Below are positions 33,991-42,269 of a DNA stretch of 64,000 bases, one piece after another. Position 1 is the stretch's first letter, and each line of letters opens with the position of its first letter. Origin of the DNA: Pyramidobacter porci (lineage in GTDB: Bacteria > Synergistota > Synergistia > Synergistales > Dethiosulfovibrionaceae). The notes below the pieces were generated by a model. It did no database searches, had not been told where the DNA came from, and was given only the letters and a program-made list of their open reading frames with translations. The stretch lies in the NCBI RefSeq assembly GCF_009695745.1, contig NZ_VUNH01000005.1:62001-126000 (forward strand), read 5' to 3'. A program made the translations under genes and the position numbers.

Positions 33991-35061
33991 TCACCCCATA
34001 ATATATCTTTGAATCTCTTTTACCGACTTACCTTCGAACCCTAAATTTAAAAGTTTAGTTCCGTCTTTCCTGAAATCACGCTCTCTGATAATATTCGCAA
34101 CATCAATAAGCAGGTCCGTTACAGGAGTAGGAACGTTAAACTTCTTGCCAATATCGGAGACCAGCGTCATATTCAGTGGTACATCTTCGTCGATAAAACG
34201 ATCAGGAACTTGAGCAGCATTAGCTGAAATTCCTTTTTCCTGAGGAAGCGGTACGTAATGAACACCCTTATAAAACATTTTACTTGTTTCATCACCAGAG
34301 ACAGGATGAAGCCCAAGAACATTCATAACAGACATACGTTCTTTGTCATAAAGTTCTTCGATTTTGATGGTTGATTTCGTACCCCAAGCATGGAAATCCT
34401 TGTCATTTTCAGTTGGTGCTTCTACTTTACCGAGATTGAACAGGTAGCTAGGTACGTGTCCCTTTGGATTGACGTTATTCATACCAACGCTGAGAGAATC
34501 CCGTTCTTGAATAATTTCTGGAATAACTGGCTTGATGATGTTAAAGAGTTCTTCATTTCTTTTTGCCGGAAGCGCAGCAATGGGAAGAACAGCTTTACGT
34601 GCTTTGATTCCAGCATGAGCAGGACCAATAAGCCTCGTCGCATATGGCATACTTCCACTTTCGCCAATGAGTGGAATTTCTTTAACTCCTGCTGCTTCAA
34701 GCGCACGGCGAAATAGAATGGAGCTCCCGGAATTACCGGGTATTAAGAGTATCGTATGTTCAGGCTTGATAAAGGGAGCCATCTGCTTTGCGAGTGCAGG
34801 ATGAAAGTTACTGACAATCGTGACGAGAAAAACATTTCCTGCAGACATGGCTTCTCCAAGAGAATCTGTTGCAAATGCTACAGGCGCAAAGCCTTCAACA
34901 ATAGGGCCGCTCATTTTAACCCCACCTATTTTTTTAATATCTTTAATAGGAACGGGGTTAATGTCATAAATAGCAGACAGTTTTAAACCACGAAGAATCA
35001 TGTCACCTGCAAGTGATTGGCCTCCATTGCCTGCCCCAATTATTACATATTTTTTTTCCAT
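33991..35061 (-). CDS. NAD(P)-dependent opine-type dehydrogenase
   Basis: 356 residues. N-terminal Rossmann fold with VIIGAGNGGQSLAGDMILRG, then GNVFLVTIVSNFHPALAKQMAPF and LIPGNSGSS, as in the octopine/nopaline dehydrogenase family; C-terminal helical domain with HPVSGDETSKMFYKGVHYVP. Family members reductively join, or oxidatively split, an amino acid and an oxo acid at a secondary amine. Next to an importer, breakdown of an imported opine is the more likely direction (inference). The substrate cannot be read from the sequence. AT-rich, part of the minus-strand operon, 42 bases after the lyase gene. Confidence 0.8.
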   Translation of the reverse strand: MEKKYVIIGAGNGGQSLAGDMILRGLKLSAIYDINPVPIKDIKKIGGVKMSGPIVEGFAPVAFATDSLGEAMSAGNVFLVTIVSNFHPALAKQMAPFIKPEHTILLIPGNSGSSILFRRALEAAGVKEIPLIGESGSMPYATRLIGPAHAGIKARKAVLPIAALPAKRNEELFNIIKPVIPEIIQERDSLSVGMNNVNPKGHVPSYLFNLGKVEAPTENDKDFHAWGTKSTIKIEELYDKERMSVMNVLGLHPVSGDETSKMFYKGVHYVPLPQEKGISANAAQVPDRFIDEDVPLNMTLVSDIGKKFNVPTPVTDLLIDVANIIRERDFRKDGTKLLNLGFEGKSVKEIQRYIMG

Positions 35062-35103
35062 CTAAACCCCTCCTAAAATGTTATAGTTCAAGATTCGTTA
35101 CAC

Positions 35104-36600
35104 TCAATCGTTACTGTTTAGCACGTCTTGTACTTTATCTAAGAGCATTCTGTATCTTTCTTTAACTTCAGTTTGTAATCTGTTATAGGCATCAATATCA
35201 TTGTCAAGCTTTAAGCTCATTTGCTTTGTAAGCTTTTCCGTTTCTTCTGAACGAGGAGAACCTTCACTGATCCTGTTTTCTACCGAAGAAGTGGCATCCA
35301 TTACTTTATCTATATGTTTCTTGGTCCATTTAAATGACCGCCCAGCAAAGTTCAAAGCAGCTTCATCAAGCTTTTTGCTGGTAATTCCTTGGCAGTTGAG
35401 ACCTGCATCAACACATTTCATGACTACTTGTCCCACAATTTCATGGGCAACACGGAAAGAAATATGCTCTTCCCTCACCAGCTCATCTGCCAATTCAGTT
35501 GCGGTACAGAAATTCCCATTCACTCGAGCTTTCATATTCTTTTCGTTAACTTTTAGTTTATTCAAGACTTCTTCTGTTAAGACTGTCATAGCCTCTATCT
35601 CCATAAAGGCGTCCCACAGATGATGCGTCGTCTCCCCACCCAGATCTCTGCTATGAGCGAAAGGAATTCCTCTCATACAACAAAATGCATCTGCAAAAGC
35701 TGCCAATAAATGTGAACATTTTGCCTTTATATATTCAAGTACGGCCGGATTTTTCTTTTGTGGCATAATACTGCTTGTAACGCAGATTGAATCATCAAGT
35801 TCAATATATCTAAACTCATCAGCACACCAATAATATAGATCATGAGCCACCCGATTAATCGTGGAGGCAAGTATCGCAAGCGTGGCGATGATTTCTAATA
35901 CATAATCCCGTGACGCAATTGCATCGAGAGTATTTACAATCGGCCCTTTAAATCCAAGTAGTTCAGCTGTAAAGCGTCTATCAATAGGAAAACTTGTACC
36001 AGCAAAGGCTCCTGCACCAAGTGTGGCATAATTAAGATGCTGATATGTAGCATAAATTCTGTCGAAGTCACGTTCTAATGCTTCGGCTACACCAGCAAAA
36101 TAAAAACCTAGCGTGATCGGCTGTGCAGGTTGCATATGCGTGTAGCCTGTCATAACTACGTTTTTATATTCTTCTGATTTTATAATTAGCGTATTTCGTA
36201 AAGCATTAAGCTGGGGGAAAAAATTAAGGAGTCGATCCCTTATATCCATCCGTAATATTGTTGAATGGAGATCATTCCTACTTCTTGCTGTATGTAATTT
36301 TCCACCAATATCAATACCTATATCATTAATAATATACATCTCTACATTGTAATAATAATCTTCATATTTTGGATCAAGAGTAAGGACTGTATTACCTTTC
36401 TTCTCTAATGCTATGAGTGAACGAAGAATTATTTGCGCATCATGTCGGCTAATAATTCCTTGTCTATAGAGCATCAACGTATGTGCTTGATTTAAACGTG
36501 ACATGTTATAGAAAGAACGTTCATTAGATGCCTTTAGAAAATTAGCACCTAAATATTTCTCTTGATTGAAACTCGGAGCTGCTTTTAGTCTTTCACGCAT
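35104..36600 (-). CDS. Argininosuccinate lyase-like enzyme (aspartase/fumarase superfamily)
   Basis: 498 residues. Superfamily motifs: HTARSRNDL (about 103-111, the ArgH signature HTGRSRNDQ with two changes), TGYTHMQPAQP (151-161, catalytic His), DRRFTAELLGF (207-217) and SSIMPQKKNP (276-285, catalytic Ser loop). It would remove fumarate from an N-succinyl-type substrate such as argininosuccinate. First gene of an AT-rich operon with an opine dehydrogenase and TRAP-TAXI importer, not with argG, so a catabolic role on a related compound is likely. Longer C-terminal tail than typical ArgH. ATG 36600 follows AGGAGG. Confidence 0.85.
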   Translation of the reverse strand: MRERLKAAPSFNQEKYLGANFLKASNERSFYNMSRLNQAHTLMLYRQGIISRHDAQIILRSLIALEKKGNTVLTLDPKYEDYYYNVEMYIINDIGIDIGGKLHTARSRNDLHSTILRMDIRDRLLNFFPQLNALRNTLIIKSEEYKNVVMTGYTHMQPAQPITLGFYFAGVAEALERDFDRIYATYQHLNYATLGAGAFAGTSFPIDRRFTAELLGFKGPIVNTLDAIASRDYVLEIIATLAILASTINRVAHDLYYWCADEFRYIELDDSICVTSSIMPQKKNPAVLEYIKAKCSHLLAAFADAFCCMRGIPFAHSRDLGGETTHHLWDAFMEIEAMTVLTEEVLNKLKVNEKNMKARVNGNFCTATELADELVREEHISFRVAHEIVGQVVMKCVDAGLNCQGITSKKLDEAALNFAGRSFKWTKKHIDKVMDATSSVENRISEGSPRSEETEKLTKQMSLKLDNDIDAYNRLQTEVKERYRMLLDKVQDVLNSND

Positions 36601-38516: not shown

Positions 38517-38567
38517 TTGACGGGGGAAAGAATTCTGTTATATACTTTCGACGTAAGAAAAGTATAT
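38517..38567 (+). promoter_or_regulatory. Promoter with overlapping dyad, hutP operon
   Basis: TTGACG (38517-38522), 18-base spacer, TATACT (38541-38546). The -10 box is part of an inverted repeat ATATACTTT / AAAGTATAT (38540-38548, 38559-38567), a possible operator. Confidence 0.6.
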
Positions 38568-38628
38568 GAATCCATAGCATACTAAGTAAAAAGCCAAAGT
38601 TTTTTTGCGCCGGTAAAAGTATCTGAGT

Positions 38629-38679
38629 AAGCAAGTAAAAACAGGCCATGAGGCTTGCTTTCACTTGCTTTTATTTTTT
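38629..38679 (+). terminator. Terminator-like hairpin in the hutP leader
   Basis: AAGCAAGT (38629-38636) pairs perfectly with ACTTGCTT (38663-38670), with an inner AGGCC/GGCTT stem, followed by TTATTTTTT. It lies after the promoter and 23 bases before the hutP start, so it may be an attenuator; it could also serve as terminator of the upstream oxidoreductase gene. Confidence 0.65.
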
Positions 38680-38702
38680 CATCGGATGAGGAGAGTGATG
38701 CC

Positions 38703-39149
38703 ATGGTAACATGGGAGAATTTCATGATTCCCGACAACGAGGCCGATCTTTGTCGTTTGGCGATTCTCCTCGCCATGACGCCGAATCAGGACGTCGAAAA
38801 GGAAGTCATCGCGCAGTATCAAAAACTTGGCCTGCGCAGCGCCGCGACGATGATTTCGGGGTTCGGCATCGACAGCCAGACGAGCATCGTGCGAAGCGTG
38901 GTCAATCTCTGTCTGAACACGAACGTGATCGAACGCAAAAGGTCTCATGTTCATCCGGTCTGCCACTGCGTCCTCGAGACGGCGCAGAGTACCCGCGCTT
39001 CCGACGCCATCGGTCAGAACTTCTGCTTCAAGGCGGCCGTCGTGCGCCGCAGGGAAGAGTTCACGCTGTGCTTCTACGGCAACCTGGCCATGCACGAGCT
39101 GTCGGGACACAAATCCATCGGCGTCGGCTATCAGATCCTCGGCAATTGA
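38703..39149 (+). CDS. hutP: HutP-family RNA-binding antiterminator
   Basis: 148 residues, the length of Bacillus HutP. HutP is a hexamer that, with L-histidine and a metal ion, binds mRNA and opens a terminator. The metal ligands are kept: His84 and His88 in HPVCH and His136 in LSGHKSIGVG match HALYH and GLEHETFGVG of the Bacillus protein; AAVVRRREEFTLCFYGNLAMHEL matches the RNA-binding sheet. ATG 38703 follows GAGGAGAG. No hutH, hutU, hutI or hutG is nearby: downstream come a terminator, a transporter and an amidase, so this copy probably senses another ligand or uses histidine to control a different operon. Confidence 0.82.
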   Translation: MVTWENFMIPDNEADLCRLAILLAMTPNQDVEKEVIAQYQKLGLRSAATMISGFGIDSQTSIVRSVVNLCLNTNVIERKRSHVHPVCHCVLETAQSTRASDAIGQNFCFKAAVVRRREEFTLCFYGNLAMHELSGHKSIGVGYQILGN

Positions 39150-39209
39150 TTTTTGTACCGGCAATTAAATACAGTATCCAGTACGGCACCACGATAAACG
39201 GTTTCTCAG

Positions 39210-39275
39210 TAAGAGAGTAAAGCGCTGTTTCCGACGTTTCGGTCGGGGCAGAATGTTTTGCTCTCTTATTTTTTT
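39210..39275 (+). terminator. Strong terminator between hutP and the transporter (candidate HutP-controlled attenuator)
   Basis: TAAGAGAG (39210-39217) pairs with CTCTCTTA (39261-39268); the stem continues with G-U pairs and an inner CCGAC/GTCGG hairpin, then seven T. Its place between hutP and the structural genes is that of the hut antiterminator target in Bacillus. Clear UAG repeats were not seen. Confidence 0.8.
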
Positions 39276-39338
39276 ACGCGCCCCGAGGGGTTCGCTGCAT
39301 CGTCATGTTCTGAACAAATTCGAGAAGGAGGAACTGCT

Positions 39339-40727
39339 ATGTCACACGAGAACTCTGCCGCCAAATCCGGAACTTTTGTCACCCGCATGGGCAACGTCAT
39401 GCTGCGCTGGTCGCTGAAATACATGCCGGACGCCAGCATTTTCGCCGTTGTGCTGACTTTCATCGCGTTTATCCTCGGGATCACGCTGACCGATCAGGGA
39501 CCGATGCAGATGATCCAAAACTGGTACAAGGGATTATGGGAACTGCTCGGCTTCTCCATGCAGATGTCGCTCATCGTCATCACCGGTTCCTGCGTCGCCA
39601 ACGCCCCTCTCGTCAAGAGATGGATCGACGGGCTGGCGGGAATCCCCAACAGCGGACGTTCCGCCGCTTTTCTGGTCACGTTCGTCAGCGTCGTCGTCTC
39701 CTTTGTTCACTGGGGGCTGAGCCTGATCGTCGGCGCCATTCTTGCCAAGGAGTTGGCCCGCAATCTGCGGCTCAAGCGCATCCCCTTCGAGTACGGGCTT
39801 CTGGCCGCCGGGGCTTACGTGGGACAGATGACGTGGCAGGGGATGCTCAGTTCATCGGTCGGTCTGTTTATCGCCATGCCGGGACACGTTCTGGAAAAAA
39901 CGATGGGCATCGTGCCCATGTCGCAGTTCATGCTCAACCCGATGAACATCGCCGTCACCGTCGCGCTGGCGATCTTTCCCGCCGTCTTTGCCGCCATGCT
40001 GCAGCCGAAGAATCCCGACGAGTTCATGCCCCTTGACGAAAACGCCGTTCGCGCCATTGAAAAAGAAGACTTGAAGGTCAAACGCCGTCCCGAGAATCCG
40101 ACCGTCGGCGACGTTCTTAACTACAGCCCGCTGATTTCCCTCGCGCTCTGCGCCATGGGCTTCGTTTACATCTTCTGGGCTTTCAGCCGGAAGGGCTTGG
40201 GCGCCCTTGACTTCAACATGCTCAACGCGCTCTTCCTGTTTGTCGGCATTTTGCTCTACGGCAACATCGCCAACTACGTGCAGGCCGTCAAGGACACGAC
40301 CGCCGGCGTAGCCGGCATCATCTTCCAGTTTCCGCTCTACGCCGGCATCATGGGCATCGTCAAGTACTCGGGGCTCGTGCTGATTCTCGCCAACGGCATC
40401 GCCGCTATCAGTACCAAGGGGACCTTCTACCTGTGGACGTTTCTTTCTTCATCGCTGGTCAACATGTTCGTGCCCTCCGGCGGCGGGCAGTGGGCCGTTC
40501 AGGGGCCTATCGCCATCGAGTCGGCCAAGCTGATGGGCGCCGATCTGGTCAAAACGAGCCTGATGGTCGGCTACGGCAACACATGGACCAACATGGCCCA
40601 ACCCTTCTGGGCCATCGCCCTGCTGGGCATCACTGGGCTGGAAGCCAAGCACATCATGGGGTACAGCATGGCGATCATGCTGCTCAGCGGTTTCATCTTC
40701 GTGCTTGCCGCCGTTCTGCCCTTCTAA
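39339..40727 (+). CDS. TIGR00366/AtoE-type short-chain fatty acid or carboxylate transporter
   Basis: 462 residues, about eleven to twelve membrane helices. The AtoE-like pattern is clear: RWSLKYMPDASIFAVVLTFIAFILG near the start, FVHWGLSLIVGAILAKELAR, GAYVGQMTWQGMLSSSVGLFIA, and FVPSGGGQWAVQGPIAIESA near the C terminus. Members import short carboxylates such as acetoacetate or butyrate; the true substrate here may be the acid form of what the next-door amidase cleaves. ATG 39339 follows AAGGAGG. It lies directly after the attenuator. Confidence 0.88.
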   Translation: MSHENSAAKSGTFVTRMGNVMLRWSLKYMPDASIFAVVLTFIAFILGITLTDQGPMQMIQNWYKGLWELLGFSMQMSLIVITGSCVANAPLVKRWIDGLAGIPNSGRSAAFLVTFVSVVVSFVHWGLSLIVGAILAKELARNLRLKRIPFEYGLLAAGAYVGQMTWQGMLSSSVGLFIAMPGHVLEKTMGIVPMSQFMLNPMNIAVTVALAIFPAVFAAMLQPKNPDEFMPLDENAVRAIEKEDLKVKRRPENPTVGDVLNYSPLISLALCAMGFVYIFWAFSRKGLGALDFNMLNALFLFVGILLYGNIANYVQAVKDTTAGVAGIIFQFPLYAGIMGIVKYSGLVLILANGIAAISTKGTFYLWTFLSSSLVNMFVPSGGGQWAVQGPIAIESAKLMGADLVKTSLMVGYGNTWTNMAQPFWAIALLGITGLEAKHIMGYSMAIMLLSGFIFVLAAVLPF

Positions 40728-40742
40728 AGAGAGGTCATCCCC

Positions 40743-42197
40743 GTGACCGGTTTCGACTTCATGGAAGCGACCGTCGCCAAAGTCCACGCCGCCTATTTGG
40801 ACGGTTCGCTGACCTGCCGCGCGCTGTGCGAATACTATTTGGCACGCATTGACTGTCTGGAATCGCGGATCAATTCCATCATCTGCGTCAATCCCAAGGC
40901 GCTGGAAGAAGCCGAGCGCTTCGACGCGTACGTGAAGGAAAGACGTCGGCTTTGCGGAGCGCTTCACGGCATCCCCGTGATGCTGAAAGACAACTTCAAC
41001 ACGACCGACATGCCCACGACGGCGGGAAGCGTCGCGCTGAAGGGCTGGGTGCCGCAAAAAGACGCCTTCGTCACCAAAAGGCTGCGCGAAAGCGGCGCGC
41101 TGATCCTCGCCAAGACCAACTTGCACGAGTTCGCCATCTGGGGCGAAACGGTCAGTTCCATCCTCGGGCAGTCGGTCAATCCGTACGATCCGACGCGCAC
41201 CCCCGGCGGCTCTTCCGGCGGCACCGGCGCGACGATCGCCGCCAACATCGGCATCGTCGGCCTGGGCACCGACACGATCAACTCGGTACGTTCGCCCGCC
41301 TCGGCCAACAGCCTTGTCGGCATCCGCCCCACGATCGGCCTGGTCTCGAGGGCCGGCATCGTTCCTTACTCGCTGACGCAGGACACGGCCGGACCGATCT
41401 GCCGCACCGTGGAGGACGCGGCGCGGTGCCTCAGCGTCATCGCCGGCTACGATCCCGACGACGCGGAAACGGCGTGGGGCGTCGGGCACGTCGTGGAAGA
41501 CTACGCAAAGTATCTCGACGAAAACGCGCTGCCGGGCAAACGCATCGGCGTGCTGGAAAGCCTTTTCGGCAAGGAAGACGTCAACCGCTCCACCAACGCC
41601 GTCATGAGCGAAGCGATGAAGGTATTCGAGGCCAACGGAGCCACACTGGTTCCCGTCAGGGACGACATTGACCAGTCATGGCTGAGCAGCGAGACGTCCG
41701 TTCATCTCGACGATTTCCGCCGCGATCTGGACGGCTATCTCAGGGAACTGCCCGCCGACTGGCCCGTTCACAGCATGAAGGAAATCCTCGACAAAGGGCT
41801 GTTCCACCCGTTCTCGGAAAGCAACATGCGCGACGCGATGAAGCTCGGGGTCAGTACTCCGCGTTACCTTGAAAAGATGTACAACAAAATCGAGCTCCGC
41901 ACTCGCGTGTTGAAAATCATGGCCGATCTGCGGCTCGACGCGATGATCTACCCCCACCAGCAGCAGCTGGTCTGCAAATGCGGCGCCAGCCAGCGGCAGC
42001 GCAACGGCGTGCTCTGCTCGTCCACGGGGTTCCCTTCGGTCTGCGTGCCGGCGGGATTCGCTCCCGACGAAAACGCGCCGGTCGGCGTTCCCGTCGGCAT
42101 GGAGATCATCGGCCGTCCATGGAGCGAAGCGCTCCTCATCTCCATCGCCTACGCCTTCGAGCAGCATTCGCATTTCCGCAAGCCGCCGGTATTGTAA
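40743..42197 (+). CDS. Amidase signature family hydrolase
   Basis: 484 residues. Hydrolyses a C-N amide bond with a Lys-cisSer-Ser triad: Lys in GIPVMLKDNFNT, the Ser-Gly loop TPGGSSGGTGATIAANIG, and the nucleophile Ser in GTDTINSVRSPAS, where the usual Gly-Gly of DTGGSIR is replaced by Ile-Asn, a change next to the active site that may alter substrate choice. C-terminal GVPVGMEIIGRPWSEALLISIAYAFEQ is typical. No signal peptide. GTG start at 40743, 15 bases after the transporter. GatA is unlikely because gatB and gatC are absent. Confidence 0.88.
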   Translation: MTGFDFMEATVAKVHAAYLDGSLTCRALCEYYLARIDCLESRINSIICVNPKALEEAERFDAYVKERRRLCGALHGIPVMLKDNFNTTDMPTTAGSVALKGWVPQKDAFVTKRLRESGALILAKTNLHEFAIWGETVSSILGQSVNPYDPTRTPGGSSGGTGATIAANIGIVGLGTDTINSVRSPASANSLVGIRPTIGLVSRAGIVPYSLTQDTAGPICRTVEDAARCLSVIAGYDPDDAETAWGVGHVVEDYAKYLDENALPGKRIGVLESLFGKEDVNRSTNAVMSEAMKVFEANGATLVPVRDDIDQSWLSSETSVHLDDFRRDLDGYLRELPADWPVHSMKEILDKGLFHPFSESNMRDAMKLGVSTPRYLEKMYNKIELRTRVLKIMADLRLDAMIYPHQQQLVCKCGASQRQRNGVLCSSTGFPSVCVPAGFAPDENAPVGVPVGMEIIGRPWSEALLISIAYAFEQHSHFRKPPVL

Positions 42198-42219
42198 AAC
42201 AAGTCTAACGCCATAGAAT

Positions 42220-42262
42220 AAAAGAGCTGTCAGATCCAAAAAGGGGATCTGGCAGCTCTTTT
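42220..42262. terminator. Bidirectional terminator
   Basis: 18-base arms (42220-42237 / 42245-42262) with one G-U pair, A-rich on the left and T-rich on the right, between the convergent amidase and RND genes. Confidence 0.88.
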
Positions 42263-42269
42263 ATGATCT

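Follow-up and report, generated by a model that had tools for sequence, protein, structure and literature searches.

A candidate HutP-type antitermination operon with two terminators and a putative non-histidine ligand in Pyramidobacter porci

HutP and the hut operon

HutP is a textbook antiterminator that depends on both a ligand and a metal. Its structures show that the metal site chelates histidine through its amino and carboxyl groups, and its RNA sites in Bacillus are composed of evenly spaced NAG triplets. In the hut operon of Bacillus subtilis, a terminator is located between hutP and the catabolic genes, with NAG triplets at this terminator (PMC7430163, PMC8934654). In the literature searched (subscription literature lay outside the search), HutP is described from one histidine operon, and the terms HutP family, HutP-like and HutP homolog were not found.

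This study concentrates on an operon headed by a HutP-family gene in Pyramidobacter porci, a gut-type bacterium of the Synergistota. It lies on contig NZ_VUNH01000005.1, in a stretch of 64,000 nt (the window; coordinates refer to it and features lie on its forward strand unless stated otherwise). The operon consists of a leader with a terminator, the hutP homologue, a second terminator, a carboxylate transporter and an amidase. Sequence comparison suggests that it is probably governed by HutP-type metal-dependent antitermination at two attenuators, one in the leader and one in front of the transporter, with a ligand other than histidine. An earlier note on this DNA had read it as HutP-type control recruited for a non-histidine operon, and had named as checks a profile search, a comparison of gene order and hairpins in relatives, and the covariance of the hairpins.

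With the hut system of B. subtilis, the locus shares the Pfam family, the fold, the three metal-ligand histidines, the terminator after hutP and the NAG triplets. It differs in the absence of histidine genes from the operon, in the spacing of the NAG triplets, in the position of the protein outside the Hut branch, and in an additional terminator ahead of hutP that shares its motif with the one after hutP. The earlier note called the layout the same as in Bacillus, which is not the case; a terminator in front of hutP implies control of hutP's own transcription.

A HutP-family protein outside the Hut branch

The gene at 38703-39149 encodes a protein of 148 aa that, judged by its sequence, is a HutP-family member but not a hut regulator. 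The profile search places it in the family proposed earlier: PF09021 is matched with 106.5 bits (cut-off 25, E 1.6e-30) over profile positions 1-127 of 128, and NCBIfam gives no match. Taken singly, the sequence finds nothing in the PDB, being too diverged, whereas a profile of this protein and 15 relatives succeeds and finds only three sequences, all of them HutP (B. subtilis/Geobacillus; best E 2e-24). The AlphaFold model (pLDDT 87.9) likewise matches HutP chains only at E<=1e-3, the top 11 all being HutP with TM values of 0.68-0.76 (query length). His84, His88 and His136, already taken for kept metal ligands in the earlier note, correspond to His73, His77 and His138 of B. subtilis HutP and are invariant across an alignment of 16 diverse homologues, in which Glu92 is invariant as well; the three histidines also align to the Geobacillus structure sequence.

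The kept metal-ligand histidines, together with the retained arginine of the S-T-R segment, would also be expected if histidine were still the ligand and an ordinary HutP coupled the amide/carboxylate operon to histidine availability. The source genome indeed harbors hutH and hutU on another contig, so that the earlier statement that no histidine-degrading gene is present holds for the operon and not for the genome. These hut genes, however, are accompanied neither by a hutP nor by a motif of the AGUAAGNNAGUAAA type, the element that marks both terminators described below. In a tree of 63 sequences, a supported fork (96/90) sets the Hut branch apart from the window clade with its closest relatives, and the protein neither groups with HutP of Hut operons nor adjoins hut genes. 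In the alignment, non-Hut members show a conserved His131 that has no counterpart in hut members, and the window clade carries Lys instead of the Glu that follows His136. Relatives of the protein, moreover, adjoin malonate decarboxylase and CoA-transferase genes. Histidine as the ligand is therefore considered unlikely.

A second HutP homologue of Pyramidobacter (L003 8122-8736, G000:C13) is encoded directly upstream of rpmE and thyX, and 25 of the 30 Synergistota loci inspected (L011-L040) show this linkage. The paralogue has a sub-cut-off match to PRK03065, and in Pyramidobacter a NAG terminator was not observed next to it. The malonate decarboxylase genes of the source genome (C4) are located on a different contig and lack both hutP and the shared motif. 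That the window protein acts in trans on the hut genes of its genome (C2), on the C4 genes or on C13 rpmE-thyX was rejected, as neither the motif nor an AG-rich leader terminator of a comparable kind was seen there.

Two terminators with a shared element

The leader terminator (38629-38679) is formed by a hairpin at 38629-38670 (-20 kcal/mol, z -3.8), the intercistronic terminator between hutP and the transporter (39210-39275) by a hairpin at 39210-39268 (-35 kcal/mol, z -5.6). Each hairpin is followed by a U run, and in neither case was any of 200 shuffles as stable, which confirms the two hairpin terminators reported to flank hutP. The second lies between hutP and the structural genes, where a HutP-controlled attenuator is expected, and its pairs covary.

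The element AGUAAGNNAGUAAA spans the base of the 5' arm in both hairpins, the remaining sequences of which are unrelated. It is found as AGTAAGCAAGTAAA at 38626-38639 and, as an exact copy in the 5' arm of the second terminator, as AGTAAGAGAGTAAA at 39208-39221; no further exact copy exists in the 2.5-Mb genome. With one mismatch allowed, two occurrences are observed in the window versus 0.04 expected by chance. The genome-wide regulon search was an exact-pattern search; control patterns gave 4 and 8 genome matches at one mismatch, so that only an exact match is informative. Compared with each other, both terminators reach a likeness score of 13 in their 5' segments, above the maximum of 11 for 54 control terminators and above 300 shuffles. 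By locus, this likeness is clear in the window, L101 and L104 and moderate in L009 and L087.

A leader of this length fits attenuation in general, and the leader hairpins could be regarded as parts of a riboswitch or of an attenuator coupled to the ribosome, HutP being a bystander. However, a scan of the window for Rfam families (riboswitches, T-boxes and other RNA families) gave no match, no candidate leader-peptide ORF is present in the leader of the window or its close relatives, and the same element recurs between two cistrons. Such a mechanism is highly improbable.

The leader (38574-38635) contains NAG triplets, the last four of which are located at 38617, 38625, 38629 and 38633, thus entering the 5' arm in steps of 8, 4 and 4 nt. 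At the second terminator, a pair with a 7-nt step (CAGUAUCCAG, 39172-39181) precedes a group at 39207-39222 by about 25 nt; HutP attenuators are characterized by two NAG clusters about 20 nt apart, and here the first group comprises two NAGs instead of three and the spacings differ. Clusters matching the upstream pair are present in L008, L009, L010 and L041. In 12 of 12 hairpins examined, the 5' arm holds a cluster of NAG triplets, for the most part with AG at steps of 0/4/8, and another group precedes it. It had been noted earlier that UAG repeats are not obvious and that the RNA signal may differ. The former is correct for UAG and does not extend to NAG, which forms clusters upstream of and inside both 5' arms; the signal does not seem to differ in kind, though its steps are 4/8 nt.

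Both hairpins are kept in L041, L008, L009 and L010, that is, in relatives down to 69% protein identity; the leader hairpin is additionally found in L007 and the more distant L045. Compensatory changes affect 5 of 14 pairs of the leader hairpin (seven relatives) and 6 of 20 pairs of the second (five relatives), with covariation scores of 0.34 versus <=0.12 for slid partners as a control. As the sets are small, this covariation is support for selection acting on the helices, but no proof of it. L010, the relative with 69% identity, is a Dialister metagenome-assembled genome (MAG). Contamination with Pyramidobacter DNA was ruled out by this identity and by the G+C content of its operon (45.5%, compared to 48% at another locus of that MAG and 60% in the window).

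The order hutP-terminator-transporter-amidase is conserved in L041, L008 and L010, and in L009 both terminators are kept and the same transporter begins. Gene order and hairpins thus persist in relatives, save for the lineage of Pyramidobacter sp. C12-8, the closest named record to the source genome (HutP-like protein 98% identical). This lineage (L007, L042 and L043) retains the leader terminator, hutP and the amidase (97% identical), with the transporter replaced by an amidohydrolase and an unassigned gene. L045, from a Pyramidobacter MAG, has a second hutP-like gene as the first gene of a different amidase operon, likewise preceded by a leader terminator.

The hairpins could alternatively be plain terminators, the first ending stray transcription and the second setting the ratio of hutP to transporter, with the protein regulating elsewhere or otherwise. 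Intrinsic terminators are common, and AG runs (GAGAG) are also expected in A/G-rich 5' arms. A terminator between promoter and hutP is, however, pointless unless it is relieved; a unique element common to both hairpins, a layout conserved across wide divergence and an AG enrichment that is family-wide relative to control terminators also argue against this explanation, to which only a small probability is assigned.

Proposed mechanism and ligand

Under HutP-type antitermination, most transcripts from the promoter at 38517 would by default stop at the leader terminator. Those passing it would yield some HutP-like protein and then stop at 39210-39275. Ligand-bound protein, its metal held by His84, His88 and His136, would bind the NAG triplets in the two 5' arms and ahead of them and prevent both hairpins, so that the polymerase would transcribe hutP together with the genes of the carboxylate transporter and the amidase. 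The layout suggests that the leader attenuator ties hutP expression to HutP itself as positive feedback, which to our knowledge has not been described for Bacillus. RNA binding, the antitermination direction, positive autoregulation and the ligand class are what we infer for the window protein. The ligand is most likely a substrate or product of the operon, a small carboxylate or its amide, and not histidine. By analogy with the chelation of histidine, the three-histidine metal site could hypothetically bind malonate-like acids.

Several observations weigh against this mechanism. The ligand class is guessed solely from the gene neighbours. The NAG steps of the window (8/4/4, 7 and 4) do not resemble the even spacing familiar from Bacillus. 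AG density is only modestly unusual in this genome (AT-matched fractions of 0.047 for the leader and 0.039), as plain terminators would also allow; since AG enrichment in the window alone is too weak, the case from NAG and AG density rests on the comparison across loci. The likeness of leader and intercistronic segments is not significant singly in L008 and L010, nor in L095 and L097. Finally, L007, L042 and L043 lack the second terminator along with the transporter.

Promoter and downstream genes

A sigma-70-like promoter, TTGACG-18-TATACT (38517-38546; 10/12 matches), precedes the leader, in agreement with the promoter named in the earlier note, and its sequence is identical in L007 and L041; as three such sites are found in 4 kb versus 1.6 expected, it is weak evidence alone. 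The cargo, too, agrees with the first description. The transporter (39339-40727, 462 aa) is an AtoE-type short-chain fatty acid transporter (PF02667 SCFA_trans, 418.7 bits), which scores 413.5 bits against TIGR00366 and so stays under the equivalog cut-off of 575.75. It is followed by an amidase-signature hydrolase with a GTG start (40743-42197, 484 aa; PF01425, 321 bits), the closest solved relatives of which are peptide amidases (1m21, 265.8 bits). A strong terminator of 20 pairs (42218-42264, strand not assigned) closes the operon and faces a gene on the opposite strand. Elsewhere in the window, at 33991-36600 on the reverse strand, an octopine-dehydrogenase-like gene lies beside an argininosuccinate-lyase-like gene, perhaps as part of an unusual amino-acid or opine-type pathway.

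HutP homologues beyond histidine operons

PF09021 was found in 66 of 188 genomes of Synergistota and in 134 of 380 genomes of Negativicutes. Of 398 genomes sampled from the phylum Bacillota, 135 encode relatives of the window protein. Many non-Hut members precede genes of small-acid catabolism, encoding malonate decarboxylase, CoA-transferase III, carboxyltransferase subunits, an OAD_beta subunit, CoA transferase or M20 peptidase. The 5' arms of terminators after hutP homologues contain a median of 0.148 AG per nt (n=43), compared to 0.069 for other terminators of the same loci (n=60); the Mann-Whitney p of 6.5e-7 is optimistic, the loci being related and both sets coming from one simple finder. 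The earlier view of recruitment for a non-histidine operon thus stands as far as the transfer is concerned, given the conserved hairpins and gene order, and falls as a one-off, given how common non-Hut homologues with AG-rich terminators are across the Bacillota.

The malonate decarboxylase loci of Negativicutes (L087-L091, L095, L097 and L102-L104) resemble the window in that most have an AG-rich terminator after the HutP homologue, and five (L087, L088, L095, L097 and L104) have a further one ahead of the OAD_beta-type gene with which the cluster begins. They differ in their cargo (OAD_beta-type subunit, biotin ligase and mdc genes), in the mid-operon position of hutP and in a protein identity of 23-28%. 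The CoA-transferase III loci (L082-L086, L093, L096, L099, L117, L120, L126 and L134) share the order of hutP, usually an AG-rich terminator, and a catabolic gene; here, the cargo is a single gene or short operon, and a leader terminator is mostly not seen. As a positive control, L101 represents a true hut locus of Negativicutes, hutG-hutP-hutU-hutH with a further amidohydrolase, presumably hutI. Near-identical AG-rich elements (CCUAGAGCUAURAGAUG) occur ahead of hutG and after hutP, which corresponds to the double layout.

Other arrangements were also seen. At L089, L090 and L098, one malonate decarboxylase cluster contains two distinct hutP homologues, each with an AG-rich terminator of its own behind it. 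Long GAG runs (GAGAGAGTGAGAGTGAGAG) in the ribosome-binding regions of the hutP homologues of L088 (just upstream of 3005) and L102 (just upstream of 2249) might reflect action of the homologue on its own translation. In L049 and the Dialister-type loci L069 and L071, a homologue with altered metal-ligand positions lies between thrS and infC-rpmI-rplT, which suggests a housekeeping branch of the family; this linkage was rejected as general to the Negativicutes group, as it held only for Dialister-like loci. One Negativicutes genome (L100) encodes three HutP-like proteins with a changed metal-ligand pattern around two tyrosine decarboxylase/permease pairs, and no AG-rich terminators were found at this locus.

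These comparisons suggest a broad family of antiterminators acting on AG-rich terminators, in which HutP is a single branch, and this general point is of more interest than the window operon itself. It appears about as likely as not that HutP represents only the histidine branch within a large class of RNA-binding sensors that depend on a metal. In the other members, the three-histidine site would chelate small carboxylates of various kinds (malonate, substrates of CoA-transferases, the acid or amide of the window), and the proteins would open AG-rich terminators at two or more places in an operon, including their own leader, with positive feedback. HutP-type control of malonate, CoA-transferase and amide/carboxylate catabolism in anaerobic gut Bacillota and Synergistota would, if true, make the family a general regulator class with swappable ligands, the RNA targets of which would be readable from sequence.

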